NCBI RefSeq assembly: GCF_019059575.1
Contig: NW_024881669.1
Location: 682,001-746,000, forward strand
From: Amphibalanus amphitrite
Taxonomy: Eukaryota > Arthropoda > Thecostraca > Balanomorpha > Balanidae
Length of the DNA stretch: 64,000 nucleotides
Direction: 5' to 3'
Positions 12,011 to 54,743 of this stretch are shown piece after piece. A model generated the notes under the pieces. The model saw nothing but the letters and a program-made list of their open reading frames with translations. It had not been told where the DNA came from and ran no database searches. The stretch's first letter is position 1; every line of letters begins with the position of its first letter. The position numbers and the translations under genes were made by a program.

Positions 12011-12025
12011 GTTTTTGAATTTCTC

Positions 12026-12640: not shown

Positions 12641-13028
12641 CACCGTGCGGAGCCAGTCGCGGTGGCTGGGCAACACGCCTCTTTGGCCCTGAGTTCTGTA
12701 AGGGCGGGACACTCAGTGGGGCGCCGCACTTGAGGAGCCATTCCCAGTCGTGATGCCGCCGGGGGTGGTGTCGGAGAGGTGTCGCCGGCGGGGTTCGGGC
12801 ACTTGTGCTCGTCCTCCGTCGGTGGGGCTGATCTGTCGCTGCCCCTGGCGGTGACTCGGCGAGGCGTCAAGGGAGGAGGCGGTATCCGACCGTGGGGGGT
12901 GGTGAGCCTCTCTCTCCCCCTCGGAAGGTGCCGCCAAGTCTCGTACAGTCAGCTCGGCCGTCCTAGGCCTTGTAGCGGCGCCGTTGCGGAGCGTCGGCGG
13001 CCGAGCTGGCGGAGACCAACTCTTTCAC

Positions 13029-24089: not shown

Positions 24090-25390
24090 CAGCCGGGAGC
24101 CGCGGCGCCAGTGCCCGTCAGCCGGTGGGTCGTACCGCACCAGCCGGAAGCGACGCCGCATCAGAGCAGAAGCAACTACTGCTGTATGTAGTTTCCTTCG
24201 TTCAGAGACAGCTGTATTTCTCATCCAATTTTTTATATCAGTCCATGACCGCTGCTTCAGGACTTCTTCCTCCTCCTTGAGTCGCACGCACTCACTCTTC
24301 CCTGACAGTTCTTGGCGGTCGATGAACACACTAAGGTGTTTTTTTTTAACAGCTTCGTTCTCACTTTCCGTCCAGGGCAGCCTCTTCCTTATCGGTTCAG
24401 TACCCAAGACGCGGGTGCGTCCCTTGTGCGAATTCTCGTCCTGATGCGGTGCAGGGAGCTGCAGCTGCGGTGCAGGAAGCTGCGACTGAGGTTCGGGGAT
24501 CTGAGGCGCGGGGAACTGGGAATCTCCCAGATCCAGTCCTTCCAGCGTTTTCCCCCGGTTTCGCCTAACCAACCCTGTCTCTGCCGCCCTCAACAGCTTA
24601 CTGATCTTTGCGACCTGGGTGCATGGGTCTGTTAGCCGATAAAAGTTTCTGTGTATCAGGATGTCGTGCCCCATGAAGTTGGCGAGCATGTCCATCTAAC
24701 GATCCTTTAGGTTCAGGACTTGCGAAACCGTGGCGACATGCTGACGCAGGGCTGTGGAGGTTATTGCGCCCGGCCTCTGCATACTGCTTTCTCTGCGTCT
24801 TCCTAAGCCAGTCACTACCTCTGAGTGGATGGAGGCGCGGCGACGCGGCATTGACGAAAACGTACGGTGAATCACCGACTCCCACGAGCTCCTGTGTGCT
24901 CACCAGTAAATCCATGCTATCTCTTACTTCAGGAGTGAGGAGAATTGGCACACCCCTGCCTCTCTTACCTTTGATTACAACAGAATCAGCCAGAATGAGC
25001 ATCAAAGGCAACAAGCTATTGACACAAAATAAAGTTGGATTGGCATTACACAATAATACCTACATTGAAGGATCACTGGATGGTATCTTTTTGGATGGGC
25101 AAGCCGTCGGAGACAGTTTGGCTCTGGACAGAGGCAAGGATGAGCCTGGGTACATCAGTTCGAACTTGAGGCCCCTTTCATAGTCCTCATCTGTGAACTA
25201 TTCGGAACACACACGTGGATCCTTCACATCATCCATTTGTGCATCCCTTTTGATTTTTTTTTTGCCACCACAATCTGCTCATGGCTTGGTCCTTCGGGAA
25301 TCGGGAACCGAAGCCACTTCACCCCTGGCGGGCCGCTCCACACCACCTCCCCGACCCATTTAAACACCCTGGACCGCACAGTATGGCATC
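24090..25390 (-). pseudogene. THAP plus tyrosine-recombinase element, unit 3 (most complete C-terminus)
   Basis: Minus strand. An MPYCAV start at ~25388 opens a THAP zinc-finger domain (VKWLRFPIPEG, KDPRVCSE, FTDEDYERGLKFEL). A tyrosine-recombinase catalytic region follows: IKGKRGRGVPILLTPEV, GDSPYVFVNAAS, LRGSDWLRK, ITSTALRQHVATVSQVLNLK, then LANFMGHDILIHRNFYRL. The last two carry R-x-x-H and GH...Y. After a proline/glutamine linker comes a SANT-like tail (PWTESENEAV, RSWTDIKNWMRN). A UAG replaces the residue after NLKDR at 24695, and another stop sits at the last THAP zinc position. The recombinase N-terminal half is absent, a deletion shared by all units here. Confidence 0.7.
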
Positions 25391-25690
25391 ACCTGTGCAT
25401 ACTATGCTCCGGAAAGTATAAAATAAATCCTACAGCCTACAATGCCTCTTGAAGGTGATCTCGAAATAAATCCACAACAATATTACAAAACGAAAACTTT
25501 CACTTCAGCTAGGCAATGGCAAAAGTGAAGACTGTTATTGTTTTGTAACCTGCGTCAAAAATATGTTATCTTCTTACTGCCATATTGCTACCAGGTCTTG
25601 TGAAGTCACCTGGGCTGCAAAAATCTTATAGTGAACTAACCTTATAAGCAAAGTAATCTTGGCCTAACCAACCCTGTCTCTGTCGCCCTC
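25391..25690 (-). other. Leader between tandem THAP-recombinase units
   Basis: Non-coding sequence 5' of the unit-3 THAP start. It is nearly identical to 42310-42570, which sits in the same position before unit 2. It probably holds the unit's promoter; no specific motif was identified. Confidence 0.5.
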
Positions 25691-26144
25691 AACAGCTTAC
25701 TGATCTTTGCGACCTGGGTGCATGGGTCTGGCAGCCGATAAAAGTATCTGTGTATCCGGATGTCGTGCCCCATGAAGTTAGCGAGCATGTCCAGTCTGTC
25801 TTAAAAGTACCGCGCAAATTGACGGTGGATCCATCAAGCCTGACCGAGGCAGGGCCTGCTATAATTTGAAAGTCACCGAACCAATTGATCTGGGAAATGG
25901 ACGAGGATGTGAATTGCTTCGGTGACTCAAATTCAGCAGGCCCTTCCTCGGTCAGGGTTGATGGATCCACCCTTACTTTGCGCGGTACTTTTAAGACAGA
26001 CTGTCCATCTAATGATCCTTTAGGTTCAGGACTTGCGAAACCGTGGCGACATGCTGACGCAGGGCTGTGGAGGTTATTGCGCCCGGCCTCTGCATACTGC
26101 TTTCTCTGCGTCTTCCTAAGCCAGTCACTACCTCTGAGTGGATG
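25691..26144 (-). pseudogene. THAP-recombinase unit 2, downstream part
   Basis: Carries LRGSDWLRK ... LRQHVATVSQVLNLKD and then LANFMGHDI, split by a 210-bp palindromic insertion (25793-26002). It stops at 26144, exactly where the 15.6-kb CACTA element begins. The other half of the same unit resumes at 41745 on the far side of that element. Confidence 0.75.
25793..26002. mobile_element. 210-bp palindromic MITE with GTCC duplication
   Basis: The two arms (AGTCTGTCTTAAAAGTACCG ... and its inverse) match for most of ~90 bp around a short centre. GTCC flanks both sides (25789-25792 and 26003-26006). The empty site GCGAGCATGTCCATCTAACG is present in unit 3 at about 24682-24701, which proves an insertion with a 4-bp duplication. 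No coding capacity. Confidence 0.88.
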
Positions 26145-26610
26145 CACTCAAAACAATTCTACTCTCCGTCGGCGGGTAAAACCCGTTTATTACGGGTACC
26201 CCTACTCGCAACCATATTTGACTATGCACCAGAGGGTAATTTTTACACTTCCCTCGCGGATCACCCTATCCTGTTCTGACGGATATACCCCAGCAAGCTG
26301 ACCCCCCACCGTCGGGTTAACTCTTTACGTGTACCCGCAGAGAAGTGATTACTCTTCGCTCTGTTACCCACGCAGCCAATGTTTACTCTTCCCTGGGTGG
26401 TAGAATTTCAACCCGTTGCCGGCGTATAACCCGTTACTGGCGAATAACCTTACTCGCCAATATATTTAAACCACCCCTGCCGAGGGTACTTTTACCCCCT
26501 CTTGTCGGATACTTTACCCCCGTGCGCAGTCTTTACTCGGTATACACGCGGTTCTTACCCGGTCAGTACGGATATATTTCCCCGAAATACAACACGAAAT
26601 ATAACACATA
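26145..26610. promoter_or_regulatory. Left subterminal repeat region of the CACTA element
   Basis: Many diverged GCGGGTAA / TTACCCGC-like motifs on both strands, for example GGCGGGTAAAACCCG, TACGGGTACCCC, GTGTACCCGCAG, TGTTACCCACGC, CAACCCGTTGCC and ATAACCCGTTACTGGCG. In Spm such subterminal motifs bind the TnpA protein; the same role here is inferred. The 8-exon gene's 3' end faces this side. Confidence 0.65.
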
Positions 26611-26770
26611 ACAGAAGCATGCGCTTTCTATTTTTCTATTCACTGCACAGTCACAGTGCACAATCATTGACGCCTTCTCGTACCATTCGTTCCCTTACTT
26701 CAGGGATCCAGTTTTTTTTCTAGTTTTAGCGCTGCAAAAACGTAACCCTCTTAAACACTTAAACAAAGTC

Positions 26771-26942
26771 CCCTGTCACATATACACCACCATCAAAGCA
26801 ACGTCCGTGTCTAGGCTCCCATGAAGGGCGAATAAGGGGCAGGCGATGTGGCAGTGGGCCCTGTCACATATACACCGCCATCAAAGCAACGTCCGTGGCT
26901 CCCATGAAGGGCGAATAATGGGCAGGCGATGTGGCAGTGGGG
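26771..26942. repeat. Two tandem copies of an ~85-90 bp unit
   Basis: CCCTGTCACATATACACC starts at 26771 and again near 26859. Both run through CATCAAAGCAACGTCCGTG and CCCATGAAGGGCGAATAA to GGCAGGCGATGTGGCAGTGG. The second copy lacks a few bases. It lies downstream of the 8-exon gene. Confidence 0.8.
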
Positions 26943-27031
26943 CGTGACAGGACCACGCCCTCGTCCAGTTCGACCGCAGTCAATGAAAAACCGGCGAATG
27001 AGTCGGAAACCAGGACCTCTCTCTCTCTCGC

Positions 27032-30000
27032 TCAGTGCTGCAGCTCGCCGGCTGGGAGAAGTTTAGTGAGCACGGCCTGGAGCGCCGTCGGAACATCCTT
27101 CTTAACGTCGGAATGTACTACGTATACCGCCAGGAAAGTGGCCGTGTTCTTGATGCCAAGGTAGTAGAGCGGCTGGCAGAACACGGAAAACGATACCGCC
27201 CACGTGAGGAGCTGGAGCTCCTCGCTCCCACTGAGGGCGGCGCAGTGCACCCCCTCCACGAAGAGGGCAGCACTACCACCCCGCCGCACGATCACGGGGT
27301 ATGTATGATGTCCTTCCTCTTCTACAAAAACTGTTTCCAGTTCCTTCAGGGAGGCCACCAGACCTTCGGCGTCGTGGCCTATGCAGAGAACAGAACAATG
27401 CGCAATGTTATTCTCATCTATGCCAACACCTAGGCTCAGATCACAGCATCAACTCTTACTCGTATGTTACATCGCTACTCAATCACGGGAACAGCTGTCA
27501 TGTATTGTTTGCACTAAGTATAACTCACTAGATTTTGCACTGAACCAACCAAACGCTATAGATGTCTCCTTTCCTGACCATGAAGTAACCGCAAAATCTG
27601 AGTCATTTCAATGTACCGAGTCTCACGAAGAGGGTATTTTTCGCCCCAGCACTTGTTTCGATACCGCAGTGAAAACTGATTGGATTGGAGGAAACTGAAG
27701 TCATTGGGGGAAGGGAAATGGAAAGCAATTCATTATTTAACCCGCGTCCCGTTGGGGGAGGGGCATTTTGCCCCCCGGTGTTTTTTCGCAAATAGCAAGA
27801 AAGCGGCAGCGCGAAGCTCCGCCAAATTTTGGGTACCTTTCCGGACATCAATTTGACACCTTCATCAAAATTTCAGGTCATAGATCACCTTAGGTCAAGA
27901 GTTATTGAGGTCAAACTGAGGTCATGTCAAAAATAGTGTCATCTTTACACGCTCACCAAAGTCAGAGTTATTAATCAATCTTTAAGTTATTTGCATGATT
28001 TTGTAAAGAAAAGACGGGCCTACAAAACTGCCATCTCGGATTTTCAAAATTTTAGTTTTCTAAAAAAAATATTTCAAAAAATGATGTTTTTTTAAAATAA
28101 TGAATATTTTTTATATTTCAAAATTTTCAAAAAAAAACGGAACATATGTGTTAGAACCCTATCTAGTGCATGTACACTGAAAATTTCAGGCCGATATCAC
28201 TTTTGGTTACGAACTTATAGCTCTTAGGTGTTGACCGCCTGGTTGATCAATAGTGCAGACCCATCCAAACTTCAAATTTGGCATTTAAATGACTTCTTAG
28301 AGTATCCATGGTACAAATAAGAGTGTTAAAGAGTGTTTTAGTGACTTACGCTTGGAAAAATAACCTAAAAACATGTATCGCACAACTATGCGTAGTCATG
28401 TTACACATTTGACCTTGCGTGACCTTGAACTCATTAGACCTTGACTTCTCCTACTGAGTTTTCGCTTCCAAGTCTCAGATACACTTTCTAGACCATTACA
28501 GGTGGATTCCTGTCTGAAAGTTGACCTAAAAACATGTGTCGCATGACCATGTTTTTCATGTTTGAAAGTTGACCTTGTGTGACCTGACCTTGACCTGACC
28601 TTTGATGTGCACCACCCCTTAGGCCCTTCAGTGAGGTCGTGTGTCTGTCTAAGGGCTTCCCTGATAAAAAGAAGCATCTGGAAAGCTTCATTTCAGCAGG
28701 CGTCATAGTAAAACATAGCAAAAATGCGATATTTCACGTTTCACCTCGGTTTGACCTGACCCGTGACCTCGATTTAAAATTTATATGCTTTTGAGAGTTC
28801 ACCACCAGGTCTACCCAACGCCGTTTGTCGCTTGTCGCTACGTCGCGTGGTTCTCGAGATATCTTCGGGGGCCAAAATGCCCTCCCCCTCCCCCAACGGG
28901 GGAGGGTCGCCAGATCCCAACGGGGCGCGGGTTAACCTGGCAGTTACTAGGGTTGTTGTTGCGACGGGAGGGGGCGTTAAACGCCCACGGCCGATAACAG
29001 ACTCCCGAAGCAATAGGTGCAAGGGGGGAGGCAGGCGGCAAAGGAAAGCTATCAACGAGACGAGTTTATAGCACAATAACAATTTTCTTGAAAGGTCTTA
29101 GGTCATGTCAAAGAGCATGATGCGAGATGAACACTGGCGTCTCCTTAGCCGTAGAAACCAGTCTATCGGCAGCACCAATGTAACCCAAACTAGCATAATA
29201 CATTGACAAATGACAGGGAAAGGTGTGATAGGCACAATCAAATGCCAAGCTCAGGTCAAAACGGGTCATGTTAAGTGTGTAAAGGCCTGCGTCACATGCT
29301 ATCCTACAATTTTGTAGAATTCGATGACGAATCGATGACATCTATTTAGGAAATTTTCCTCAAGATCAGACGAAAAAAAGTTAAAAAGCGTTAACGAGTT
29401 AAAAAGGTCATACTTGAAAGAGTTAACTTTTGATTAAAAACAACTCCTTTGATGCAGCTTGGTGTCTTAATTTCCATCTTTTAACCCTTTGTGAAAGGGG
29501 AAGCTATGAATTAATGCGACCTGTCGAATTGGACGTGAGGCGAGGAAAAAAGATGCATGCAAATTACAAATCTATCGGGCAAATTGTTCCCCGACTGTTA
29601 CTGTCCCTTACCGGGTACGTTGCGAAGAACTTTTTTGAGCTCCCGTAGTGCATCAGCCTGGACGGCCTTGCCGCCCCGAGCGTCCGACTTCAGTCGCGCA
29701 TACTCTTCCCATATCTGCGGAACAGTGATGAACAATGGTGATAATTATTTTAATTACTAACAGAATATGATGTTGATTGGGGTGAGGAGCACTGACAGAA
29801 AGGTTACATAAACAAAACTACCGAAAACATTCCACGCGATTTGAGAATGGACGGATAACGAATATAAAACAGGACAGGACAGAACGAGACTGACGAACAG
29901 AGAGGAACTATATAACAATGACTAGGACAAGCTTCACAGACATAGCCAATACATTACTGGAAATTAAACACCAGGCCAACTAAACCCTATTACTGGTGGG

Positions 30001-33000
30001 CTTTCTGAACCTGGAGTTCGTTTACTGGTGTGTGTGTGTGTGGGGGGGGGGGCGATTCGGCCCCCTTAAGGTCTCTGACTAACCGGCCGATTTCGATGGG
30101 ACAAACGCCATTCAATTGCCCTCATCGTGAATTATTTGATGTGCTATAAAACAATTTAAAAGTCAAAAATTTGGGTTTACAGTGGCTTTCTCCCCTAATA
30201 TTTCACGATTTTCACGTTGTCACTAAAAACTCTATGATGTTGTTTTTTATCCAATTAAGATAATGTTTTAGGAGCAGCTACTTGATGAATAGGGCTATGA
30301 TATATACTCCGGTTTTTATAATATTCGAAAATCAGAAGCGGTCCCAGTATATCGAAATCGTCAAGACGGCCGAAAAGTGTCCAGGAGAAATTGGCCCTGG
30401 GGACGACAATGGGCTATACGAAAGGCAAAAAAATTGGCACACGGTGCTCAATAAAAAGTCATCAAATTTCAGGAAGCTGGCTCCAGACGTTTTCTGTCAG
30501 ATTTGAAAAACTACCGGCGGGGGCCGATCCCCCCCCCCCCCCAGTAATAGGGTTAATGTGTATGTGCACGATTGTGCAGAAAATGGCATGCTAAAAAGGG
30601 CAAGCAGGTGCGAACAAAAACGTGACTTATGCCCATTTATGCTCAATCGTGAGGTTTCGTCGACAGAAATTCACAATGCTCTGCATTGTCTTGCAATTAT
30701 TAGGTAAGATACAATATGTTCAAAGTGTCTTTCACACTTTGAACTCCCCGCTGGATAGGATGATGTTATCAAAATGCCATTTTCAGAAATTTTCAGGGCC
30801 AATCTCATTCAAACATTCAGGGGTAACGTCGAACTGGTGCAGAAGGAGGTTCTGTAAGTCACATGTCAATATCCGCTTATGAGCAATCGAGATGATTGAA
30901 GGGCCAGATTCACCCCCCCCCCCCCCGCTAGCCGAGCGTGGGCAGTCAGCCATTCGAATTACACATACCTCATTTTCGTTAAAAAGCAGTGGATACTTGG
31001 CTTTCACTCCTGCGATGCTTTTTCTTGCGCGTTTGACACCGGCCAGCATCCGACGCCGGTCTGGGAGAGTTATCTTCATCGCTTCCTGCACCTGCGGAGA
31101 ATCACGCCTTGTCGATAACTTGCCTTACTACTGAATACATTTTAATTTCACTTGAACAAGGAAACACCGCTTTTTATTCTCTTGAGCGTTTTAAAAAGCA
31201 GTACTTAGCGCTATTTTACTTTCATCCATATATTGCATAGATATTTTACATTATTGGAGGCCGCAAGACAAGGCACTTGACATGGACACACAAACAGTTG
31301 CCAGCCATTATCGTTGTTGCGACGATCAATCACAGACAAAAACGCAGGCACAAAGACGTGACCACAATTATGTATATGTATCAATATCAGCTACAGAAAT
31401 GACCTATCGAGCATTTAAATACTGAAAAGAAGATTCAAATACGTTTCACGAGTCCAAAGCACATATATGAAATTCGAGTGCAGTGGCCAGGGTCTGCTAT
31501 TCGTACTTTATACATAATTATGCACAGTGAACAGCCCAGGTAACAATTTTACGTTGTTACAAGGTACTAAGAGGGTTGAAAAAGGGTTGTCACAACGTGC
31601 CAATTTTACGTTGTCACAACGTAAAAATGCAGACGCCAGAAAACGTCATTTGAACGTAAGCCGAGTATGCAATTGAATGCCGTCGCAACGTTTCGACAAC
31701 ATCGTATTTACGTCGAGTGAACACTTAAATGGCGTTTGTGCAACGCTTTTATAACTAGCGTATAACCTCTCGACGACCTCATTACGAGCGAGCGCGAAGC
31801 GCGAGCGAGTTCTTCGAGGAATACTGGAAAAATCTGAGTATGAGCGGCCCGACACGGCACGGCCCCATTACGCTTTTGACGAACTTATATCTCTGCAGCC
31901 GCAGGCCCGATTCACGCGCGGTCTTCCTTGGTGGGTAGCTTCATCCCTTCTGCCTTGAATGAGACTAACCCCGGACCATATACGAGTATGCGTGATGAAT
32001 GTAGCACGTGGCACGTGCAGAATGAAGGATGTTATGAACATGTTTTGTGTTATATCTCCAAAATGGCTTGGCCGTTTGTGCTCAATTTTGATGTGTGGCT
32101 AGACATCACGTGCAATATGCATGGCCCATCTGTAAATTTCAGGATTCTTACCCCGTAATGCAGAAACGGTTGAATCTATCGAGTTCCAATTTGTAGGTAT
32201 TTGTAGGTTGTTTAGAGCGGCAGCGAGGAGCATAATGTAAATTAAAAGTAGCATAAATATGATAATGACAGTCTCCTCGGAAACTATACATATTTGAGTT
32301 AATTTCGTTTTGCTATTTACATCAAACATCAAACATTTGGATATGCTGCAAAACGCTGATGGAAGATTCGGTCGTCACCACTACAGAAATTAACTCAGGT
32401 CTGAGCACCAAAAATGACAGAAATATTTGCGAAATGATTGTTGACGACGCTTCCAAGACTTTTTCCGCTTCTAATAAACGATGTATAGGAGTCGAATGAC
32501 CTGGTGGGGGGGGGGGGGCATCCCCGATATTCCGAAGGTGGCGCCGATCACAGGATGACCAATGATGAATAATCAGGGACCAAACAACAAAGCAATTACA
32601 AAGCAATTCCTTGTTGGCTGTATGCCAGGAAATGGGGTTAAGGCTTTACACGTACCTGGCTTTCGTTGAGAGTGCCCTTCTTCATGTCGAGTACGCACTC
32701 GTGCACCTTCATCCCGTCCACACGGGAGATGTCTGGGAGGAAGTTGGGAAGCTTCTTCGGTGTCTTCTTGCGCTGCTGAACCTCGAGGTCGTCGCATGCT
32801 TTCCTCTTATTCTTGAACTTATTGATCAGTGACTCCTTCACAAGTTTCTGTAACATGCACACCATACCAATATTTTGTTAGTAAATATACCTACAAAAAG
32901 TTGCCAGCCATTAACGCTGTTGCGACGATCAATCACAGACAAAAAAAAAAAACGCAGGCACAAAGCCGTGACTACAATTATGTACATATATGTATCACTA

Positions 33001-35949
33001 TCAATATCAGCTACAGAAATGACCTATCGGGAATTCAAATACTGAAAAGAATATTCAAATACGTTTCTCGAGTTCAAAGCACATATGCGAAATTCGACTG
33101 CAGTGGCCAGGGTCTGCCAGTGTCAGTCACGGTATGACAGCTGCTGTATGTGTTATGACAGGTCTGAAAGCGAGCTTACTCAGTACCTACATGCTTGGCC
33201 CGGCACCAAGCCAGACTTGGTGTCATATTCCATAGATGATATTTGAGTTTATTGCTGGGCTTACAGATCTACTGGGTTGATAGTGGTGGGGGGAGGGGGC
33301 AGGCCTGGCTTGATATTTTAAGGGGATCTCAACATCTTTTGTCAATTGACTTCGGCTTGTACTCGTTCATTATACAGCAAGCAAATGAACAGAACAAACA
33401 ACGGAAATAAAAGAATCAGTAGATCATTACATGTCGGTGGCTAATATATTTGCTCAGTTCGCGCACTGGACAATGGAATCGGCGACAGGAGCGTGTAACA
33501 TTGGAGATTGGTGGGGACGTTGACTATGGTGAACAGTGATAACACTGAGTTGACGATGAGAGAAAGACATTTTATCACATGATTTCCAGAACTCACCAGC
33601 CGGTCCGACAGCCGCAGTCCTTTCCCGAACCCAGGGAATTGTTCTGCGACGTCAGCTGCGATAGCGTCTACGTTGTTCAGGTACCTGTTACAGAAAATCA
33701 TATCAGCGAATGCATTCCGACACAATGAATGGCACAGTGAATTCAGCGTCATGTCTCATAAAACGTACAGTTTAGAATAGAGATGCAAAATGAGAGTAAG
33801 TACAGGCACCGCGTTGTGAAAAATTTCCGGCACGGCGTGCCTGAAGCGATGTCTGGCCGCGGAAAGTGTTGGGCTCAAGCTGGTCTAAGCAAGTAAACAA
33901 CTTCATGAAAGTCGCTTGCGATGAAGCAAATGTATCAGACTTCGTGCCTCTTTCACACTCTTCTGCATCGAAACAATTAGGCACATCCCCTTAACCTTCT
34001 ACAATGGCTCACCATTAGTGGTCCTATGTTCCCCCCAAATTGAAATGTCTAGCTCATAAGGGATGCACGATTTCCACATGGTAGCATAATGTGCAATGTG
34101 CATGCACATTTTTAGGCTCATTGAAATACATTTAGGGGTCGCAGAAAACATGCAACATCCCTGGGATATTAAGTAAAAAGGCATTTACGATGGGTATATC
34201 ACTGCTTGTAGCCCCACGTACAACTTTCGTAAATAACTTTTCTAGGCTTTTCCAATACAATAGCAGGTTCATGAAATGCCAAGGAGACTAGCTGCCAGGA
34301 TGCTTCGTTGCTCTTTTGTTTGTTTGTTGGGAAGCAGCGGGACGGTTGCCCCATTCCGGCAGTCCATCCAATGACTGAGGTACGAGTTTACTGTTAAAAA
34401 CTATGTTGGGCTTCACAGATTATCGTTTTCATACCTGCTGCGACACGTCTTCGTGTACTGTTCATACACAGCAGCCATTATGTCTCTTCGCTCTCCTTTG
34501 CTGTGGTCACCGCCGTTTTCCATAGTCTCGCGGACGGATGGTGGAAGCGCTTTCGTGTCCAGGACGAACACCTGCCGGCTAAGAAACAATTACGTCATAT
34601 ACCAATGGCAAGCCACAGCAAATGGTGGGTGAAGGCTGGCGGGTGAATAGGGGGGGGGGGGTATCACTTTATACAGGAAATCTGTCACCATGTTTATTGG
34701 ATTGGATATTTATAGTGTTGCAACCCAAGAACACGAATTAATATTGCATTACAAACGATACAAATCAAAAGAGTAATGCACCTGTCTTCTTGTTTTCAAA
34801 TTGTACTCTTAGTCTCTTAGAGCATGAGTATGAACAATATTGAAAGAAGTCGGCTTCCCAATTGTTGTTTCCATGTTACAGCACATACCAGATGATTAGC
34901 ACATATATACCTCGCACTGGTCCCGGCGTCCTTGCTGGACTCGTTGTCACTGGTCCCGCCGTCGGTGAGAGCAAGCGGGTCCTGTGCCGTTTCGCCGACG
35001 GCAGAACTCACAGAGGAAGAGCATGGCACCAAAAGGTCACTGAAAGAAACGAATAGCAATGTTGAATCTTCAATTCATGGCTATGGAAGTATACCGACTT
35101 TGTAGCAGTGGCACACCGGGGACGGTATGGTGTTTGTAATGTAATGATACCATTAATTAAATAATATAGTCATTAATTAAACAATATAACAGACAACGAA
35201 AAAACTCTCAGAAGAGAATTTCAGCCTGTCGCCAAAATGTGTGTGATAATTAGAGATACACAAAGTCCCCATACCAAAGCCCCGCACCGGCTCCGCCCCC
35301 GCTCAGACCTTGGTGTGACCCGACCACGACCCGTAACGGTGACAGTCAGGCCTGTGCACCACCAAGGCCCTGCCACCCGGCGTCTAACAGTGTGACCACA
35401 TGGGCAGGGAGCCCGACACAGCCCGGCAAACACTTCATGCGAGACCCACTCTGCCCCGCCGGGCCTAAGTCCATGCCCCGCGCCAGGCCTGCGGGCTTCA
35501 ACTTTGCAACTCTAGTGATAATTAACATTTCCGGATGGTAATGAAAGACAAAGGTAAATCAAAAAGGAAAATGAATATGTTAGTAGGGTCGTACAAAGGA
35601 CTTACTCGATCACTGCTGAATCCTTGGAACAGGAGGGAGTTCCCAAGGCGCCAGGAGAAGCTGTCATCGTCAGGACGGGGATGGTGTCGGCCGTGCTGAG
35701 ACATCTTTGGATGAATGACACTGGTGGGCTGGAGACTTGGACGGGGACAAGGCGAATCCGTCCGCCACATGGTAGGTCGTCTACTGGGTTATCGATGCGA
35801 ACATACAATTCGGACTCCTTGTGGTAAAGCTCTAAGCAATAACTGCCAGACAGAGAAAACGCCTCTTTTGCGGCCGCCAAAACATCACCCTTATTCTTCA
35901 CAGTCACAAGTCGGTTGATGTCGTGTTGCTGCACCACGTAGGTCAGCAT
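27032..35949 (-). CDS. Eight-exon second gene of the CACTA element (TnpA-like position, SAMD3-like tail)
   Basis: Exons (minus order): 35949-35606, 35039-34911, 34578-34435, 33684-33597, 32847-32656, 31091-30969, 29714-29612, 27378-27032. Every intron is GT-AG. Coding lengths 344, 129, 144, 88, 192, 123, 103 and 347 sum to 1470, exactly 490 codons with the stop, and all split codons join in frame. The acceptor for the first exon is at 35962; the ATG reads MLTYVVQQHD. The N-terminus looks like a small ubiquitin/PB1-like fold (LYVRIDNPVDDLP). The middle is basic (KFKNKRK, QRKKTPKKLPNFLP). The end (YPVIVRRGG ... YYLGIKNTATFLAVYVV, VPTALQAVLTKLL) resembles the conserved tail of SAMD3-like proteins of fish and invertebrates. 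DNA binding to subterminal repeats is inferred. Confidence 0.75.
27741..28931. mobile_element. TTAA-flanked non-autonomous element with long inverted ends
   Basis: TTAA precedes 27741 and follows 28931. The ends CCCGCGTCCCGTTGGG and CCCAACGGGGCGCGGG are inverted copies, and the GGGGGAGGGGCATTTTG block is mirrored further in. TTAA with CCC-starting ends fits piggyBac-like elements. The interior is rich in TGACCT/AGGTCA like the repeats at 1-760 and 8600-9530. It lies in the last intron of the 8-exon gene. Confidence 0.65.
29995..30552. mobile_element. Small piggyBac-like MITE
   Basis: CCCTATTACTGG starts at 29995 and its inverse CCAGTAATAGGG ends at 30552. TTAA follows on the right, and TAAA (one change) precedes on the left. 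G- and C-runs lie just inside both ends. Intronic, no coding. Confidence 0.55.
31285..33120. repeat. Duplicated ~230-bp intron segment (31285-31500 and 32885-33120)
   Basis: GTTGCCAGCCATTA ... GTTGCGACGATCAATCACAG through CAGCTACAGAAATGACCTATC to GCAGTGGCCAGGGTCTGC occurs in two consecutive introns in the same orientation, with small differences. Each copy begins shortly upstream of an exon on the minus strand. This suggests local duplication within the 8-exon gene. Confidence 0.8.
31740..32160. repeat. Second copy of the GAGCGAGCG-type repeat
   Basis: ATTACGAGCGAGCGCGAAGC...GAGCGAGTTC, CTGAGTATGAGCGGCC and a GCACGTGCAGAATG segment match 7573-8215 in order. It is inserted in an intron of the 8-exon gene. 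Confidence 0.55.
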
Positions 35950-36008
35950 GGCGATCGTGGTCCTGTAAATATTCGAATTACACATTTAGCCACAAAGTCT
36001 GTCGCGGC

Positions 36009-36553
36009 CAGGGTTGGGCTGGAAGCCGTGCCGAAGCCAGGACGGTAATAGGAAGCCAAAACCGAAGCCGAAACCAATGGCTTCCAAAATTATAATTTGG
36101 AAGCAAAAACCGAGGCCAGTGACATTCAGACCTGAAACGTGGGAAGCCGAAACCACAGGCTAGACTTCGAAGCCGTCTAGCTTCGGCACAGAAGGAGCAC
36201 ACTTCTAGCACACTGCGGCAAGGAGCCAAACACGGAGCCGGGATAAAACTAACTGCATCCACGACGCATGACTTGGAAAGACAAAGTCTGAGTGAAAAGT
36301 GAAATAACCGAAAAGAGTTAAAATCACAACGAACTTTGCGCACGCGTTTTATCAAAAAGCGGACTAAATTAGGTTTCCGTGTCTGGCTTCTGCATATTCG
36401 CGGAGGCCAGACACGGAACTCGAGGCCGAAGTCAAGGCCGAAGCCAGTAGCTTTTGAATGCTAGGAAGCTGAAGCCGGTCTGCCAGCCACCTTTTTCACG
36501 AACAACCCGGCTTCCGAAACCCGAACCCGAAACCGGCTTCCAACCTAATCCTG
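36009..36553. mobile_element. hAT-type MITE in the intron after the transposase exon
   Basis: The ends are CAGGGTTGGGCTGGAAGCC and its approximate inverse (GGCTTCCAACCTAATCCTG). An exact 8-bp duplication GTCGCGGC lies at 36001-36008 and 36554-36561. The interior is made of GAAGCCGAAACCGAAGCC-like short repeats on both arms. No coding. Confidence 0.85.
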
Positions 36554-37333
36554 GTCGCGGCACACTGCGGCAGTACCTACATAGGTCCAAGTGCGCGATA
36601 AGGATATCTTTTCCCGGCATGTGACTGTAAGACCGAGCGACGAAGGAGCGAGGTCAATAGGTAAACATATCCTTACATCCGGGAAACATATCCTTACCCT
36701 GCACAAGTAGACTTGCAGAACCATAAATATTTCAATTTGGAGGTTGATTGAAGCTCCATTTGAATTTGAATGAATGAATGGTACAAAAATAGATAATATT
36801 TGTTTCGGTCTATACCAATTTCGTTGGCACAATTCATCCTTGATCTTTGCCTAAACGCATGCGACACGCAAAGACAGAGATATCTGCTTTGACAAGCACT
36901 GACAATGATAAATCAACCTGTAATGGAAAGGCAAACGGATATTTTCAAATTCCACGTGTCCATATATAGGTAAAGTACATTTTCATACGGCATCATGCAG
37001 TAAGCGCAGTTATCAACCACTGGTCATAATTTGGAGTAAATATAATATTTAAAAAATGAGTCGCCCGTAAAGTCGTCTTATCCCTGACGACAGGGTTACC
37101 AATACATAATGGCATCAGAGTTGGTCTAATATCGTTTACAACACGCTCGTTCTCTAACTCATATTTTGGCAAAAACAGCGGATTTGAGCTACGACTTTGA
37201 CTTTGCATCCCTGATTTACCGCATTTTGCGGTCGTATCCCGCGCAAGTGCACGTTGCAAAATGCAAGCATAATCACTGAAAGTGGATGCTCCCAATGTAA
37301 AGATATAAATGTTCATCACACTTACCTATCGTT

Positions 37334-39679
37334 CTACAGCATCCCGTAGCCGGGTATCAGCCTCCGAGGAACGGCATAGTGGTGGTCATTGATCCAGTAC
37401 GTGCCGAGGGGCTGGGGATCAACGAGACTCGCACAGTCGAATACATCATATTGATCTGTTCCAGAAATGATAAAAGCTCCCAAGGATGTGTCATAAATGG
37501 CCACCTGGTGCTGCACCAGGAATTGTTTGTCCGACTCAACGCTGCTTGGATGTTTGCAAATGCAGATAATCACAGCGACACCAGTGTGCAGCAGCAGAGC
37601 TTCACCCGCGCAGTACTTCTCGCCGTTTATTAGCGCCTTTTTGAAAAGCTGTGCCCCTCTCGTCAATGCAGCAGCCGCTTCCGGAACCTCTCCCCTGAAA
37701 GCTTGCCCGCCGCTCATACGACCGCGTAGTTCCATTGCATCTGCGACACTCTTCAGCTGATAACGAGTTGCGATGCTCTTGCATATATTTTTACGATTGC
37801 GCGAGTTTGCCACAGACCGCTTCAAGGTTTGATGTTTGGCTTCGTATCTCATGCTCCATAGATACCTCAATGGGCCATGTCTCCTCGTTTGATCGGCATA
37901 GTGTAAGAGGAAATGATGCTTCGGCGTCAGTTTGAACTCCGGAAAGCATGCGAGAAGGTCTGTCAAAAACTTTTCCACCATCCCTTGCAGGATATCCAAG
38001 TCTTGCAGTGACACCGTGAAGACAGTGAGTAGGAGCATGATTTTGATTAACTGCACGAGCAGGGAGTACATCTTGCTCCCAGACACAGCCGATGAGAGAA
38101 CACCTGCACTCAGGAGAATCAATGGCAAAAGCCTCAGAAGACACCAAGCCTCACTCGCCTGCTGCTTCACAGTTATACCCTTTCCATCACGGCGTAACGG
38201 GGCGGGATGATTTGTGTCCACCTGACTGTATGGGAATGACCTGATAGCTCTGTTCACATCGTTCAGAGACAAATCACCGCGAGAGCTCAAACCACCGCAC
38301 ACCAGAGCAATGGTGGACGGCACAACGCCCTCTAGAAGATCATGCATCACATCAGGGGGTATCGACGTCATCGGGTGAAAGCCCGTCAATGAGCTGAACG
38401 GACACGTGCTTCGGATGCCGTACGCTTTCGAGAGTGATTCACCGAAACCTTCTTCAAGCAAAAGCTTCACTTTGGAGTCATAATCTTCTTTGGAACGGAG
38501 GTCAAACTCTTCCAGCTTCGTCTTTGTTCGTATCTCATCTGCCGTTCCATGACAGTGTCGGCAAATCATTGCACCCCCACTGAAGCACTGTGAAAAGCCC
38601 GCCACACTGTGTACGCCCAGATTGTCACCGATCAACACTGCAACGTGTGCAGTAAAATGCGAGCCACCACGAATGTTTGCCACAAAACCGCTTGATTCAA
38701 GCTCTTTAAGTTCGGTGATGAGTGGGTCGAGCAGTGTTGCCCATGAATGTGTTGCCAGCAGTGCCTCTCGAAAGACTACCGAAAGGATGATTTTGTTGCG
38801 AAGTGCGCTGTTCTTAAGACTGTTCACTGAAAAATAAACAACGCCCACTTTCTGGTTCTTTGCTCTGCTGCCCAAGGGGTTGCCTACTTGAAAACTGTCA
38901 TAGTAGACTGAAAGAAGCAAACGACCTTCGCTGTTATTATTGTTATGGACGTATCCATCCTGAAGGCCACCAAGTATCCCATCTGGTGATGCAGTTGCAT
39001 CTTCGCAAGCATTCACTTGCTCGCAGAGTTGTTTAAGCTGAGGTGTAACTGGCAAGTATTGGAGCGTTTCATCTTTCCCATGTTCGTCTGTGCCCAATGT
39101 CACAGATACAGGATCAACCGTTTCAAACTCCTTGACAGCTGTGCGTTCTAGGTGGTCGCTACCCTGTAACTTGCTCAGCTCATTCAGAGTCTTGAGTTTA
39201 TGATAATATTCTTCAAGATGGCAGCATGGTGCCTCCCCACATAAGCTCAGACACTCTTGGATGACTTCTTTCGAAAAGTCCTCAATGAACTCCAGCACAG
39301 CATGGCAGCTATTTTCGGTCACATTTTGGGCGCGGAGTTTGATTATGAGTCCTAACAGTTGTTTTCTCACATCGTGAGCACCAGGGTCGTCTTCAACCTT
39401 GTCACCAGAGTCAGAATCAATCTCGACACCAGTTTCTTGTTGATTTTGAGACGAAGATGTCTCTGGAGCATTTGAAGCACAACCAGCAGCTTCAACCGGA
39501 GAACACTTTCTAGACAAAACATGATCTTTCCAATACCGAACAGTGGTGAACTTCTTGCGACACATCGGGCAATCCACGTGAAAATAAGGGTCTGATCCAT
39601 GTCGTCGCAAATGCAGGCAAAACTCTCTCAAGTCTGTGTCAGTGTGGTGACACAAAGAACATGATAGCTTCACATTCAT
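37334..39679 (-). CDS. CACTA/CMC-type transposase (TnpD/Tnp2-like position)
   Basis: 781 aa from an ATG that follows directly on a splice acceptor (TTGGTTTCAG then ATG at 39679). N-terminal C2H2-like fingers (CSLCHHTD ... CPMCRKKF). The catalytic triad can be read: Asp352 in LIGDNLGVHSVAGF, Asp443 in PPDVMHDLLEGV and Glu613 in LWSMRYEAKH. The CRHC (C-x2-C) lies near 372-375, and D-V-M-H fits the [C/D]-x2-H signature of CMC transposases. TPKHHFLLHY precedes the last acidic residue, as GPxxxxW...E does in Tnp2. The ORF is intact. Eight bases after its stop lies a donor (GTAAGT at 37325), so the exon can be spliced to or skipped in favour of the exon at 35962. Confidence 0.8.
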   Translation of the reverse strand: MNVKLSCSLCHHTDTDLREFCLHLRRHGSDPYFHVDCPMCRKKFTTVRYWKDHVLSRKCSPVEAAGCASNAPETSSSQNQQETGVEIDSDSGDKVEDDPGAHDVRKQLLGLIIKLRAQNVTENSCHAVLEFIEDFSKEVIQECLSLCGEAPCCHLEEYYHKLKTLNELSKLQGSDHLERTAVKEFETVDPVSVTLGTDEHGKDETLQYLPVTPQLKQLCEQVNACEDATASPDGILGGLQDGYVHNNNNSEGRLLLSVYYDSFQVGNPLGSRAKNQKVGVVYFSVNSLKNSALRNKIILSVVFREALLATHSWATLLDPLITELKELESSGFVANIRGGSHFTAHVAVLIGDNLGVHSVAGFSQCFSGGAMICRHCHGTADEIRTKTKLEEFDLRSKEDYDSKVKLLLEEGFGESLSKAYGIRSTCPFSSLTGFHPMTSIPPDVMHDLLEGVVPSTIALVCGGLSSRGDLSLNDVNRAIRSFPYSQVDTNHPAPLRRDGKGITVKQQASEAWCLLRLLPLILLSAGVLSSAVSGSKMYSLLVQLIKIMLLLTVFTVSLQDLDILQGMVEKFLTDLLACFPEFKLTPKHHFLLHYADQTRRHGPLRYLWSMRYEAKHQTLKRSVANSRNRKNICKSIATRYQLKSVADAMELRGRMSGGQAFRGEVPEAAAALTRGAQLFKKALINGEKYCAGEALLLHTGVAVIICICKHPSSVESDKQFLVQHQVAIYDTSLGAFIISGTDQYDVFDCASLVDPQPLGTYWINDHHYAVPRRLIPGYGML

Positions 39680-39759
39680 CTGAAACCAATAAGTGCAAAA
39701 ACATTCTGAGCCAATTGTAAATTCGCCTGGTCTGGTTGTGAGTAACAAACATTTTCACA

Positions 39760-41224
39760 GAAAATCTGCTTATTTCAGTTGCATTCATTTCAATTTTAGG
39801 TGCGTGAGTTATAAGTTCCTACTGTGTCTGTGAGTGAATCTTTCAACTTCCATGCCGGGTTCAAAGACTACTGTGTCTTTGAGTGAATATTTGAACTTTC
39901 ATGCCAGGTTCAAAGACAGACGAATGTTTATTGCAAATTAATGCAAAGGCGTAGGAACGTTGGAGCTCTATATACTCTGGGAACTTCACGCCTGATGGCT
40001 ATGCGCCTTAACCCACAAAGAAGAAGATGGGAACTTCACGAATAGCTACCTAGTGGACAGTCATCTGCTAGCTTTGGCGTTGACTACTAAAAAAAATTGA
40101 TCTTTTTATCCGAGGTAGTGTACACTGAGACAGTGAGAAGCGTTTGTCACTGTCCGCCAACTCACAGCCCAGCCCAGTCGAGTCGAGTCTATAAACTGAG
40201 CCCAGTCCAGTCGGGGTTCGTTGAATATCACTATATATGTTGCCCCAAGCATACCCGTTTGAAACATTATGCTATTTCAGTTTTACTTGATATTCACTTA
40301 GCCGCTATTATTATGCATCTTACTGAACAGGGCCACCGGCCAAGACCATTGGGCTACTTTCGTGAACACAAATCATTACTCCCAGTCCCTTACATAGGCA
40401 TAGGAACAGGGAGGGCAGAGCAGCAATGGCCCCTAACATTTAGCCCAAAAATTTCCTAAAATTTACATTTCTTCAAAACCAAATGCAGTGATTGATTCCT
40501 CAGGTTGAGATGAGTCCAAAAATGCAGAGAAAGTTGGTGTGCGTGTTGGGTGGGTGGGTTGAACTTGGGTTCACCTTAAAATAAGACCCAAAGTTTCGCT
40601 GAAACTGTTCGCCCCCCCCCCCCCAACTTTTGTGATGTTCCTACGCCTCTGCTTCTTTATTTTTCAAATTGTTGATAAAAGACGTGCAGAGCATGCTTTT
40701 CAAAAATGGCCTTATCCATCTAGGAAAAATATTAACTGTGATTTCTTTATGCTAAGATTGTGTACAAAAACTTACATTGAAATCAAGGAGAAGGTAAATC
40801 ACAAAAAAAAACTTAATCATTCATTGTGAATAATTTATTGAAAGGCGAATATTTGGTTGGAGAGCAAAATTATTCAGCAGAAAATGGTCAAATTCCAACA
40901 CTGAAGACTTTGGATTTGAATAGCATGTATCACTTGCACTTCCATGTCCCCCTCAACCAGGTGCAAAATATCTTAAATGGGTGACAAGTTGTGGTAACAC
41001 TGAAATACCTTGCACAAAAAATGAATGGTTGCCAGCAAGTAGCACAAGCATAAAATGTAGGTAGGTACGTACCTACCAAACATGTGCAAGTAACTGCAAG
41101 TAACTAACATAAGCTCAGTATTAGATAGCTGATAAAATGCATCCCACCCACACAAATAAATATTTCATCATAATCATATTGGTCCCATCACAATGCATGA
41201 TTACTCACCGTCTTCAGATAAAAG
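39760..41224. other. 5' region of the CACTA element, no ORF of note
   Basis: Should contain the promoter and at least one untranslated 5' exon, since the transposase ATG sits on an acceptor. I could not identify the exon. A tandem TTTCAACTTCCATGCCGGG / TTTGAACTTTCATGCCAGG pair with TACTGTGTCT lies at 39820-39920. A C14 run sits near 40612. Confidence 0.35.
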
Positions 41225-41744
41225 CCGAGCACTGTAGCGTCAGCAGACGCAGCGGACCCAACACTCCCAAGGCACCGCGCGCGGTAATATGGCGACCGTT
41301 GTGCCCGACCGTTGGCGTTACTCGGCCGCAAATCTTCCACGTCAGGGTACTGTACCCGGCATCCAAGAGTACCCTAACATCCGGGAACATCCGGGACTTT
41401 TAGTCCCGCGGATGTTCGGCGGCGGGTACAGATAACGGGCCAGGCGGATACTTCCTGCAAATATGTGAGTGTATCCCGTGTCGGCGGGTAATGGTGACGC
41501 CCAATGCGTGTACTGTTCACTCTCCGATCGCGAGTCATTTCTTAACCCGCTTGTCGCTGATTACAACAACGCATTCGAAGGGTCTTTCATTGCAAAAAGC
41601 GGGTAGTATGAATAATAGTCGAGTGTTTTACCTGATACTTTCCCAACCCGCAAGTATCAACCCGGTTACAAAGAGTGAACACGTGTGGCACCACTCCTAT
41701 GGCACGGATTCACCCACCAACGGCGAGTCGACTTGTTTTCAGTG
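41225..41744. promoter_or_regulatory. Right subterminal repeat region of the CACTA element
   Basis: Dense GGGTA/TACCC motifs on both strands: CAGGGTACTGTACCCGGC, GAGTACCCTAACATCC, GGCGGGTACAG, GTCGGCGGGTAATGG, TTAACCCGCTTGTCG, AAGCGGGTAG, CAACCCGCAAG and AACCCGGTTAC. It mirrors the left end and should be the regulatory side upstream of both genes. Confidence 0.65.
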
Positions 41745-42305
41745 TGGAGGCGCGGCGACGCGGCATTGACGAAAACGTACGGTGAATCACCGACTCCCAC
41801 GAGCTCCCGTGTGCTCACCAGTAACTCCATGCCATCTCTAACTTCAGGAGTGAGGAGAATTGGCACACCCCTGCCTCTCTTACCTTTGATTACAACAGAA
41901 TCAGGCAGAATGAGCATCAAAACACAAAATAAAGTTGGATTGGCATTACACAATAATACCTACATTGAAGGATCACTGGATGGTATCTTTTTGGATGGGC
42001 AAGCCGTCGGAGACAGTTTGGCTCTGGACAGAGGCAAGGATGAGCCTGGGTACATCAGTTCGAACTTGAGGCCCCTTTCATAGTCCTCATCTGTGAAGTA
42101 TTCGGAACACACACGTGGATCCTTCACATCATCCATTTGTGCATCCCTTTTGATTTTTTTTGCCACCACAATCTGCTCATGGCTTGGTCCTTCGGGAATC
42201 GGGAACCGAAACCACTTCACCCCTGGTGGGCCGCTCCACACCACCTCCCCGACCCATTTAAACACCCTGGACCGCACAGTATGGCATCACCTGTGCATAC
42301 TATGC
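41745..42305 (-). pseudogene. THAP-recombinase unit 2, upstream part
   Basis: Carries the THAP region (VKWFRFPIPEGPSHEQIV, DPRVCSEYFTDEDYERG, with Tyr where the last zinc His is expected), then IKGKRGRGVPILLTPEV up to VNAAS. It is cut at 41745 by the CACTA element and continues at 26144. Confidence 0.75.
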
Positions 42306-42580
42306 TCCGGAAAGTATAAAATAAATCGTACAGCCTACAATGCCTATTGAAGGTGATCTCGAAATAAATCCACAACAATATTACAAAACGAAAACTTTCA
42401 CTTCAGCTAGGCGATGGCAAAAGTGAAGACTGTTATTGTTTTGTAACCTGCGTCAAAAATGTGTTATCTTCTTACTGCCATATTGCTACCAGGTCTTGTG
42501 AAGTCACCTGGGCTGCAAAAATCTTTTAGTGAACTAACCTTATAAGCAAAGTAATCTTGGCCTAACCAACCCTGTCTCTG
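42306..42580 (-). other. Leader between THAP-recombinase units 1 and 2
   Basis: Near-identical to 25391-25690. Non-coding, in the same position before a THAP start. Confidence 0.5.
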
Positions 42581-43600
42581 TCGCCCTCAACAGCTTACTG
42601 ATCTTTGCGACCTGGGTGCATGGGTCTGGCAGCCGATAAAAGTATCTGTGTATCCGGATGTCGTGCCCCATGAAGTTGGCGAGCATGTCCAGTCTGTCTT
42701 AAAAGTACCGCGCAAATTGACGGTGGATCCATCAAGCCTGACCGAGGCAGGGCCTGCTATAATTTGAAAGTCACCGAACCAATTGATCTGGGAAATGGAC
42801 GAGGATGTGAATTGCTTCGGTGACTCAAATTCAGCAGGCCCTTCCTCGGTCAGGGTTGATGGATCCACCCTTACTTTGCGCGGTACTTTTAAGACAGACT
42901 GTCCATCTAATGATCCTTTAGGTTCAGGACTTGCGAAACCGTGGCGACATGCTGACGCAGGGCTGTGGACTGTGGAGGTTATTGCGCCCGGCCTCTGCAC
43001 ACTGCTGTTCTCTGCGTCTTCCTAAGGCAGTCACTACCTCTGAGTGGATGGAGGCGCGGCGACGCGGCATTGACGAAAACGTACGGTGAATCACCGACTC
43101 CCACGAGCTCCTGTGTGCTCACCAGTAACTCCATGCCATCTCTAACTTCAGGAGTGAGGAGAATTGGCACACCCCTGTCTCTCTTACCCTTGATTACAAC
43201 AGAATGAGGCAGAATGAGCATCAAAACACAAAATAAAGTTGGAGTGGCATTACACAATAATACCTACATTGAAGGATCACTGGATGGTATCTTTTTGGAT
43301 GGGCAGGCCGTCGGAGACAGTTTGGCTCTGGACAGAGGCAGGGATGAGCCTGGGTTCATCAGTTCGAACTTGAGGTCCCTTTCATAGTCCTCATCTGTGA
43401 AGCATTCCGAACACAACGTGGATCCTTCACATCATCCATTTGTGCATCCCTTTTGATTTTTTGCCACACAATCTGCTCATGGCTTGGTCCTTCGGGAATC
43501 GGGAACCGAAACCACTTCACCCCCTGGCGGGCCGCTCCACACCACCTCCCCGACCCATTCAAACACCCTGGACCCGCACAGTATGGCATCACCTGTGCAT
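42581..43600 (-). pseudogene. THAP-recombinase unit 1
   Basis: Starts with MMPYCAGPGC at ~43592, keeping the first two THAP cysteines, then VKWFRFPIPEG. Small indels break the frame near 43415-43480. Here the last zinc position reads CSEC, so Cys replaces the expected His. The recombinase part follows and is interrupted by the same palindromic MITE as unit 2. It is truncated after the GH...Y box at the unit boundary (~42575). Confidence 0.72.
42691..42900. mobile_element. 210-bp palindromic MITE, second copy
   Basis: Nearly identical to 25793-26002, in the same position of the recombinase gene and with the same GTCC flanks (42687-42690, 42901-42904). The MITE was present before the unit was tandemly duplicated. 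Confidence 0.88.
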
Positions 43601-43639
43601 ACTATGCTCCGGAAAGTATTAAATAAATTAAAAATGAAA

Positions 43640-46724: not shown

Positions 46725-46964
46725 TGTTCGGGTCTCGGCCAGACCCCTGGTCGGTCATGGCCGAACCTGTACTGCACTCGACACGCGCGGCACCGGTACA
46801 CATGCACAGGCGTCCGTAGGTCGGAGCGTCGGAGCGGACTGTTTAATTCCGGCATCCGGCCAACGGCTCAGAGCACGGGCCCCCGGCGGGACTGGTGCTG
46901 CCCTCTCTGTATTGCGTGGGAACTACAACTGCGACCGCTAAGGTATATGCGGCAGCCCCGCACA
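46725..46964 (-). repeat. 3' LTR of the Gypsy element
   Basis: Matches 61282-61510 apart from a few substitutions and two small indels near 46835-46860. The AATAAA signal of the other LTR is altered here (TTTAATT on the plus strand). TG...CA ends. Confidence 0.75.
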
Positions 46965-53763: not shown

Positions 53764-54743
53764 CAGTGGCGCGGGAACCAGGGGGGCTAGCGGGGGCTGA
53801 GCCCCTCCAACTTTTCGGCTGGGGGGGCTCGTAATGTATTTGAGCCCCCCCCCCCCCCCCCCAGCTGGAGGAATCGAAATCGGAAATCTACCAACATAAG
53901 TAACTTATCCACGACAGTTAGGATAAATGATAACAATAACAAGTCAAATGTATATTTAGACACACAAAGCTTTCGGTACGAAAATACCTTGATCACTGTG
54001 TTACAGAAAAATCTTAGAAGCGGCTCACATATCTGCACGTAATACCATCAATACTAGAACTGGATTTATAACTTTAGCAACATGCGCTGTGAACTTAGTG
54101 ACAGGACCCCGATAGCTAATCTCGTGACTGTGATATATTTTTCGAGTGATATTTTATATTTGTGTACAAGCTGCCGGTGATCATTTCTGTCCTCATTTCT
54201 GTAACACAGTGATCAAGGTATTTTCGTACCGAAAGCTTTGTGTGTCTAAATATACATTTGACTTGTTATTGTTATCATTTATCCTACCAACATAATTTCA
54301 TATATTCATACATAGGCGCGGGAACCGGGGAAGGGGGCAGTGGGGGAAGCTTGCCCCCACAACTCTGCGGCCGTGGGGGCGGTGCCCCACAACTTTTCAT
54401 GAGGCTAGGAACCGTTGGGCAGCTTGTCCTCCCCAAATTAGGGGTTGTGGGTCACAAAGGGAAGAAAGTATGTAAGTGAAAAATCCACCTCTTTCACTGG
54501 CTCGGCAACTCATTTGGCAGATTAAAACCTTTATTCCAGGTTGCCAAAACGGTAGTTTCTTCACTCAGCTGAGACGGAATACCTCACTTTTTTGCAAATG
54601 TTTTCTTTTTTTTTCGTTGGAAAGGCCAAGGTCTGAAAAACAAGTGGCCTAAAACCGGTGAGAAAACTAGATTTGGGGGTACCCTAGGTTGATCTCTATT
54701 ATGGTTCAGCCCCCCCAGTCTGGAAGAAGTTCCCGCGCCACTG
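53764..54743. mobile_element. 0.98-kb hAT element nested in the 1.36-kb hAT
   Basis: Perfect 15-bp inverted ends CAGTGGCGCGGGAAC / GTTCCCGCGCCACTG. Exact 8-bp duplication AAAGATGT at 53756-53763 and 54744-54751. A partial internal copy of the same end type starts near 54316 (GGCGCGGGAACCGGGG). Confidence 0.88.
53920..54285. repeat. Perfect 90-bp inverted repeat with 186-bp spacer
   Basis: 53920-54009 is the exact reverse complement of 54196-54285. CTACCAACATA lies outside both arms in the same orientation, as if the arm had been copied back (snap-back). RNA from here would form a long hairpin. Confidence 0.92.

Follow-up and report, generated by a model that had tools for sequence, protein, structure and literature searches.

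The maize transposon En/Spm has CAC...GTG ends, encodes a transposase (TNPD) together with a second protein (TNPA), carries a repeated subterminal motif and has internally deleted derivatives. Its two proteins are produced from one alternatively spliced unit, according to the accessible part of a 2006 report on SmTRC1, an animal relative of the CACTA elements (DeMarco 2006; PMC1636069). SmTRC1 itself makes a 2-bp target duplication, is alternatively spliced and contains two tandem open reading frames (ORFs). The short protein, which matched nothing in other animal or fungal elements, was proposed to have a role like that of TNPA (PMC1636069). Since SmTRC1 had already been reported, the idea of a two-ORF animal CACTA element is not new in outline. 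PIF/Harbinger, a superfamily with a different transposase and with a duplication and ends other than those of CACTA, likewise has two element-encoded proteins. The available text of PMC2836001 states that these elements are mobilised by ORF1 and the transposase, both encoded by the element. Here we describe a CACTA/EnSpm-type element in 64,000 nucleotides of the barnacle Amphibalanus amphitrite (contig NW_024881669.1, positions 682,001 to 746,000; hereafter the window, in which all positions are numbered). Downstream of its transposase the element carries a second gene (gene 2), and this companion protein, which appears to be conserved across lineages of animal CACTA elements, is what is new here. 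The data suggest that in some CACTA elements of animals, as in maize Spm, two proteins form the system.

Ends, insertion site and genes of the barnacle element

An initial annotation of the window had described a unit with CACT-starting inverted ends, a 2-bp duplication, GGGTA-rich subterminal zones, an intact DDE transposase exon and a complete eight-exon second gene on the same strand, and had compared its layout to that of Spm. As a whole this observation was confirmed, and the interpretation is supported, with the qualifications given below for the length of the unit, its transcript and the joint occurrence of the two genes.

The complete element extends from 26145 to 41744, with both genes on the minus strand, and is delimited by terminal inverted repeats, a target-site duplication, two empty sites and seven other copies. 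It starts with CACT at 26145 and stops with AGTG at 41744, and thus has the CAC...GTG termini of the CACTA/EnSpm (CMC) superfamily. The left terminal inverted repeat (CACTCAAAACAA...; 26145-26183, plus strand) matches the right one (CACTGAAAACAA... when read inwards; 41706-41744, minus strand) at 31 of 39 positions. At the insertion, GGATG precedes CACT and TGGAGG follows AGTG, with TG at 26143-26144 and again at 41745-41746. Two empty, uninterrupted copies of a tandem unit of about 1.3 kb, one in the left (24790-24872) and one in the right neighbouring repeat (43000-43090), read GGATGGAGG; since the flanks carry TG twice, TG was duplicated upon insertion. The insertion into an array of such units therefore provides an unusually clean empty-site control within the window itself. 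The array flanks the element at 24560-26144 and 41745-43628, and its units contain an inverted repeat of 74 bp as well as an ORF with weak THAP-domain likeness (Pfam E 0.078).

The subterminal zones (left, 26145-26600; right, 41261-41744) are rich in GCGGGTA-like words. Within these terminal 456 and 484 bp, GGGTA occurs 17 times on both strands, against 4.3 ± 1.9 expected from 300 dinucleotide shuffles (maximum 10), while only 0-2 occurrences per 500 bp were found in the interior. GCGGGTA with at most one mismatch occurs 20 times in the terminal zones against 4.8 ± 2.0 (60 shuffles), an approximately fourfold enrichment. The right zone would be the promoter side of both genes.

The transposase is encoded by a single exon with one open frame on the minus strand, which runs from the ATG at 39679 to the last base of the stop codon at 37334, and the acceptor TTTCAG lies directly before the ATG. 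Its 781 amino acids, identical (100%) to an A. amphitrite database protein, comprise N-terminal C2H2-like zinc fingers, a DDE core and the motifs CRHC and HHFLLH. We aligned it with 21 relatives, three from the same genome and the others including insects, a sea spider and a sea urchin. D306, D397 and E658 (P0001 numbering) were invariant in all 22 sequences, as expected of a DDE triad, as were GDNL, HD at 491-492, C421 and H638. CRHC and HHFLLH are situated between D397 and E658, and C418 and H634 were kept in at least 90% of the sequences. According to the accessible part of PMC12730594, EnSpm, Mirage, Chapaev and Transib are marked by two motifs that lie between the second D and the last E, C(2)C and H(3-4)H, and the barnacle transposase carries both. 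Profile matches were weaker: Pfam DUF4218 reached E 9.4e-5 and 22.7 bits, below its curated cut-off of 27, and Transposase_21 was not listed for the window protein, while an aphid relative (P0074) scored E 1.3e-5 with it, also below the cut-off. Among solved structures none was related to the transposase, with weak zinc-finger matches alone at E 0.03 or worse. From these sequence features, the element is best explained as a young, full-length, apparently autonomous cut-and-paste transposon of the CACTA/EnSpm (CMC) superfamily.

Gene 2 consists of eight GT-AG exons on the minus strand (35606-35949 from the ATG, 34911-35039, 34435-34578, 33597-33684, 32656-32847, 30969-31091, 29612-29714 and 27032-27378 with the stop), 1470 nt in total, encoding 489 amino acids with a conserved N-terminal domain in exon 1 and a conserved C-terminal domain in exon 8. 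The exon model was built from splice signals ahead of the protein search and is identical over all 489 residues (100%) to the A. amphitrite protein P0077, which represents 14 sequences on six contigs. Exon 6 (30969-31091) is absent from two other database proteins, P0078 and P0079, the latter of which stops just past exon 7.

The splice signals also bear on the transcript. A putative non-coding leader exon would end at 41209 (minus strand), close to the right end of the element, where a donor of 10.1 bits (acg/GTGAGT) lies at 41208. Only 8 nt (37326-37333, minus strand) separate the transposase stop from the strongest donor of the element (tag/GTAAGT, 11.0 bits), and the gene 2 ATG is preceded by an acceptor at a distance of 0-13 nt, both in the window (13 nt) and in three divergent lineages (C1179, C146 and C1316). 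These signals fit a shared transcript in the window and partly in the other lineages, and suggest one alternatively spliced transcript in which the leader exon is joined to the transposase exon or skips it and is joined to gene 2, as the two proteins of maize Spm come from one spliced unit. Of the Spm-like layout initially proposed, the transposase upstream of a multi-exon gene on the same strand was therefore read directly, while the single transcript is predicted from splice signals.

Compared to maize Spm, the barnacle element has CACT rather than CACTA ends, a duplication of 2 bp rather than 3 bp and a crustacean host; the 3-bp duplication of plant CACTA elements is given in the accessible part of PMC4158355. 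It shares with SmTRC1, as far as the available text describes that element, the animal host, the 2-bp duplication, two tandem ORFs and alternative splicing (predicted for the barnacle). In contrast to the CACT ends, those of SmTRC1 begin with CCC (PMC1636069).

Copies and lineages in the barnacle genome

A search of the A. amphitrite assembly (807.6 Mb) recovered near-identical left ends at eight loci and near-identical right ends at seven: the window copy (C172) and C330, C1152, C1012, C703, C556, C523 and C133, of which C703 is cut off by the end of its contig. In their main aligned pieces, these other copies share 99.1-100% identity with the window copy, with a 57-bp piece of C556 at 98.2%; alignments at 84-86% are matches between two repeats within the element. 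CACTA/EnSpm elements typically make a short target duplication, which measures 3 bp in plants and 2 bp in the animal TRC elements. Here the 2-bp duplication agrees in six of the seven copies with both ends read, as TG in C172 and C1152, CA in C1012, C133 and C330, and TA in C556. The transposase frame is intact in five copies (C172, C1012, C330, C523 and C1152), matches from residue 9 onward in C703 and is disrupted by an internal deletion in C556. A complete gene 2 is present at seven of the eight same-family loci, window included, all on different contigs; the genome search thus bore out the expectation that other copies with these ends would enclose both genes. These observations indicate that the family is young and probably recently mobile in A. 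amphitrite.

At the eighth locus, C133, both ends and the CA duplication are preserved, whereas element positions 4454-14674 are missing and only exons 7-8 of gene 2 remain. It resembles the internally deleted dSpm elements of maize.

The unit length of 15.6 kb initially given holds for the window copy, which proved to be a variant form, with 931 bp more and 3964-5489 bp less than other copies. The 931 bp between the two genes (36201-37131) are missing in five of the six other copies that cover this region (C330, C1152, C703, C523 and C556), with 11 bp in their place in C330; they are present in C1012, whose piece over element positions 6501-13584 is 99.9% identical with this stretch included. 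Conversely, C330, C1152, C1012, C523 and C556 carry an extra 3964-5489 bp at 39728/39729, upstream of the transposase exon, where the window copy has none. In C1152, a full element of 18.65 kb, this extra stretch contains internal repeats and no open frame longer than 195 amino acids. C1012 has a further insertion of about 2.9 kb between element positions 6514 and 6501, in the intron region of gene 2.

Whole-genome searches for gene 2 were made with three queries, namely the window gene and composites of the C146 and C1179 lineages. All locus counts for gene 2 and the transposase are lower bounds, as the best candidates were scored exon by exon with single sequences. In addition to the eight same-family loci, 24 divergent gene 2 loci were found: 13 with the window query, eight more with C146 and three more with C1179. 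The transposase search gave 61 rows, merged into 49 loci. Ten of the 24 divergent gene 2 loci (C1179, C146, C1944, C314, C5, C1316, C302, C1038, C950 and C424) lie 0.9-8 kb downstream of a divergent transposase on the same strand; adjacency was computed with a 10-kb limit on 21 divergent loci, the three found with the C1179 query being on contigs without a listed transposase. Under uniform placement the chance of such adjacency is 0.0003 per locus, or about 0.007 expected in 24. Gene 2 exon pieces are free of substitutions between C314 and C1944 and between C5 and C1316, and the ten loci therefore represent at most eight lineages, or nine including that of the window. Their transposases are as low as about 31% identical to the window transposase.

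The initial annotation had asked whether the two genes always travel together. They do so at seven same-family and ten divergent loci, 17 of the 49 transposase loci; against a universal pairing, the other 32 show no gene 2 with the queries used. Neither outcome that would speak against the initial interpretation was found: the two genes were not met as single-copy conserved loci without these ends, and other copies of the ends do enclose them. A high-copy transposase lineage with 783-aa open frames, about 33% identical to the window transposase, had equal scores at 11 loci (its loci are C50, C575, C699, C2, C3, C937, C1261, C1271, C1631, C1654, C2141 and others). It is apparently a second young CACTA-like family, in which gene 2 was not visible with the queries used.

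Comparison of the gene 2 exons of the window with five divergent counterparts gave proportions of synonymous differences (pS) of 0.67-0.78 and of non-synonymous differences (pN) of 0.41-0.46; as pS is saturated, no exact ratio is claimed. By this measure gene 2 is conserved at the protein level. A close pair, C433 and C70 (C-terminal pieces), differs by one synonymous and three other changes, too few to judge.

Role of the second protein

A two-protein mechanism is the most likely one for the barnacle element, as judged from its sequence, and we consider it probable that a young autonomous CACTA element and a gene 2 cofactor acting on its ends or its transposase form a two-component system. 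Transcription would begin in the right subterminal zone, and the leader exon would be spliced to the transposase exon or, beyond it, to gene 2. The transposase would cut at the CACT ends, and the gene 2 protein, as an element-encoded cofactor, would most likely bind either the transposase or the subterminal zones with their many GCGGGTA words. In analogy to TNPA of maize Spm, from which we infer its role, it would assemble the ends and regulate the promoter. The second component of such a system would lie outside any Pfam family. As to a relation with plant TNPA, gene 2 and its domains score below all Pfam cut-offs.

Several observations weigh against this reading. Neither gene 2 nor its domains come near the cut-off of any Pfam family, and DNA binding therefore lacks support from a known domain. 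The donor behind the transposase stop is weaker in C1179 (8.5 bits) than in the window; within 300 bp of the stop, the best donor scores 6.8 bits in C146, while all those of C1316 stay below 6. No gene 2 was found with the three queries at 32 of the 49 transposase loci, those of the high-copy lineage among them, and some lineages may therefore do without the companion or have one that has diverged beyond detection. Conversely, at 14 of the 24 divergent loci of gene 2 no transposase is listed within 10 kb upstream. Of the left-end matches scored (the best 40 of 166 candidates), 32 are short, covering 77-86 bp at 76-78% identity over the first ~78 bp, and among the matches listed for the two genes none lies within them; none is near any listed transposase, and they probably represent an abundant non-autonomous family with related ends. 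Finally, the flanks of C523 are unlike each other (TG and TA).

An unlikely but serious alternative is that the conserved companion acts against host silencing or otherwise on the host, for example in nuclear import or repair, rather than on the element ends. Gene 2 has no known DNA-binding domain, its being missing or unseen at so many transposase loci would suit an auxiliary role, and fungal EnSpm elements carry an added TET/JBP gene that is thought to counter methylation, according to the accessible part of PMC12730594. On the other hand, the element is like Spm in its dense subterminal repeats, in the strand that the two genes share and in the arrangement of its splice signals, and no catalytic domain was found in gene 2.

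It is considerably less probable that the element captured gene 2 from the host and carries it as a passenger, even though the gene is spliced, belongs to no known family and often lacks a listed transposase close upstream. Position and orientation of the gene agree across the transposase lineages of the barnacle that have it (at most nine, with transposases down to about 31% identity), and its protein is conserved; a single recent capture cannot explain both this recurrence and this conservation. Moreover, the protein search found no host orthologue among the best 7999 candidates scored, the three matches listed being all from A. amphitrite. Among solved structures none was related to gene 2 (a single match at E 1.1), and no relatives were found in viral contigs. 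A suspected likeness to fish and tick proteins annotated 'SAMD3-like' was not borne out by our searches, none of which gave that name, and the name is not used here.

That the two genes stand together by chance or assembly error is scarcely credible: C523 and C1152 do share a left flank and differ on the right, so that some loci may be misassembled or rearranged, but ten adjacent divergent loci (at most eight lineages), always in the same order and on the same strand, against about 0.007 expected, and seven same-family copies on different contigs already contradict this explanation, whose rescue would need a wholesale assembly artefact.

Relatives outside barnacles, surroundings and significance

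Two protein searches for the gene 2 family gave only A. amphitrite and moth proteins among the matches listed. In gene models of an aphid (P0074) and of the moth Spodoptera exigua (P0071), a SAM-type second protein stands in line with a related EnSpm-type transposase, as judged by eye for P0071; in P0074, SAM_1 matches the N-terminal part at E 7e-6. Compared to gene 2, this companion has a SAM domain in place of the barnacle N-terminal domain and lies upstream rather than downstream of the transposase, although by eye some motifs are alike and in similar order. Homology between the two was not upheld: hhalign gave E 0.043 at a probability of 1.2%, which is not significant, pieces of gene 2 and of C146 had no BLASTP match among 76 transposase matches, and a two-row profile against 86 proteins had gene 2 itself as its sole significant match. 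In shuffling comparisons, the score of the middle regions was reached by 14-329 of 1000 shuffles, while that of the C-terminal regions was reached by 12 of 1000, a weak hint. Our literature search found no paper joining the sterile alpha motif (SAM) with SAMD3 or CACTA, or the SAM domain with EnSpm.

In the sea spider Nymphon, the predicted protein P0018 has extra sequence behind its transposase part that resembles the middle region of C1179 gene 2; none of 1000 shuffles reached the score, the best of 12 comparisons, and pairwise BLASTP gave E 0.003. Against the middle region of the window gene 2, however, 208 of 1000 shuffles reached the score, the two-row profile gave E 0.82 and BLASTP against all 86 proteins does not list P0018. 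The resemblance of the sea-spider stretch to barnacle gene 2 is a lead. A broader view, which we hold tentatively and at somewhat less than even confidence, is that animal CACTA elements are generally two-component and that a fast-evolving companion family in crustaceans, sea spiders and perhaps insects (with SAM swapped in) does the job of TNPA without kinship to it.

Elsewhere, the window contains further mobile elements and repeats. A long non-LTR (long terminal repeat) retrotransposon at 12906-18596 (plus strand) has two ORFs, both open, of 611 aa with CCHC knuckles and of 1284 aa with endonuclease, reverse transcriptase and RNase H-like parts, and a single gag-pol-like ORF of 1602 aa at 56660-61468 (minus strand) is of Ty3/gypsy type; both were assigned by eye. 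Near-identical direct repeats at 46725-46964 and 61282-61510 are perhaps the long terminal repeats of the latter. At 53919-54286, two perfectly matching inverted arms of 91 bp enclose a loop of 186 bp, and there is a tandem array of 4.8 copies of a ~197-bp unit at 48658-49602.

In the literature searched, which left most subscription journals outside, no companion protein conserved across animal CACTA lineages was found described. In the 2006 work, as far as its text is available, the second protein remained a fast-evolving orphan from one species, with a postulated TNPA-like role (PMC1636069). In the barnacle, several lineages within a single genome carry the companion gene, its protein is conserved, and intact, near-identical copies are present; the need of animal CACTA elements for two proteins therefore becomes directly testable. 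If two proteins are needed and gene 2 is unrelated to TNPA, the second protein would have been recruited from different sources in plants and in animals to do the same job, and the barnacle element would represent a natural large transposon system of crustacean origin.

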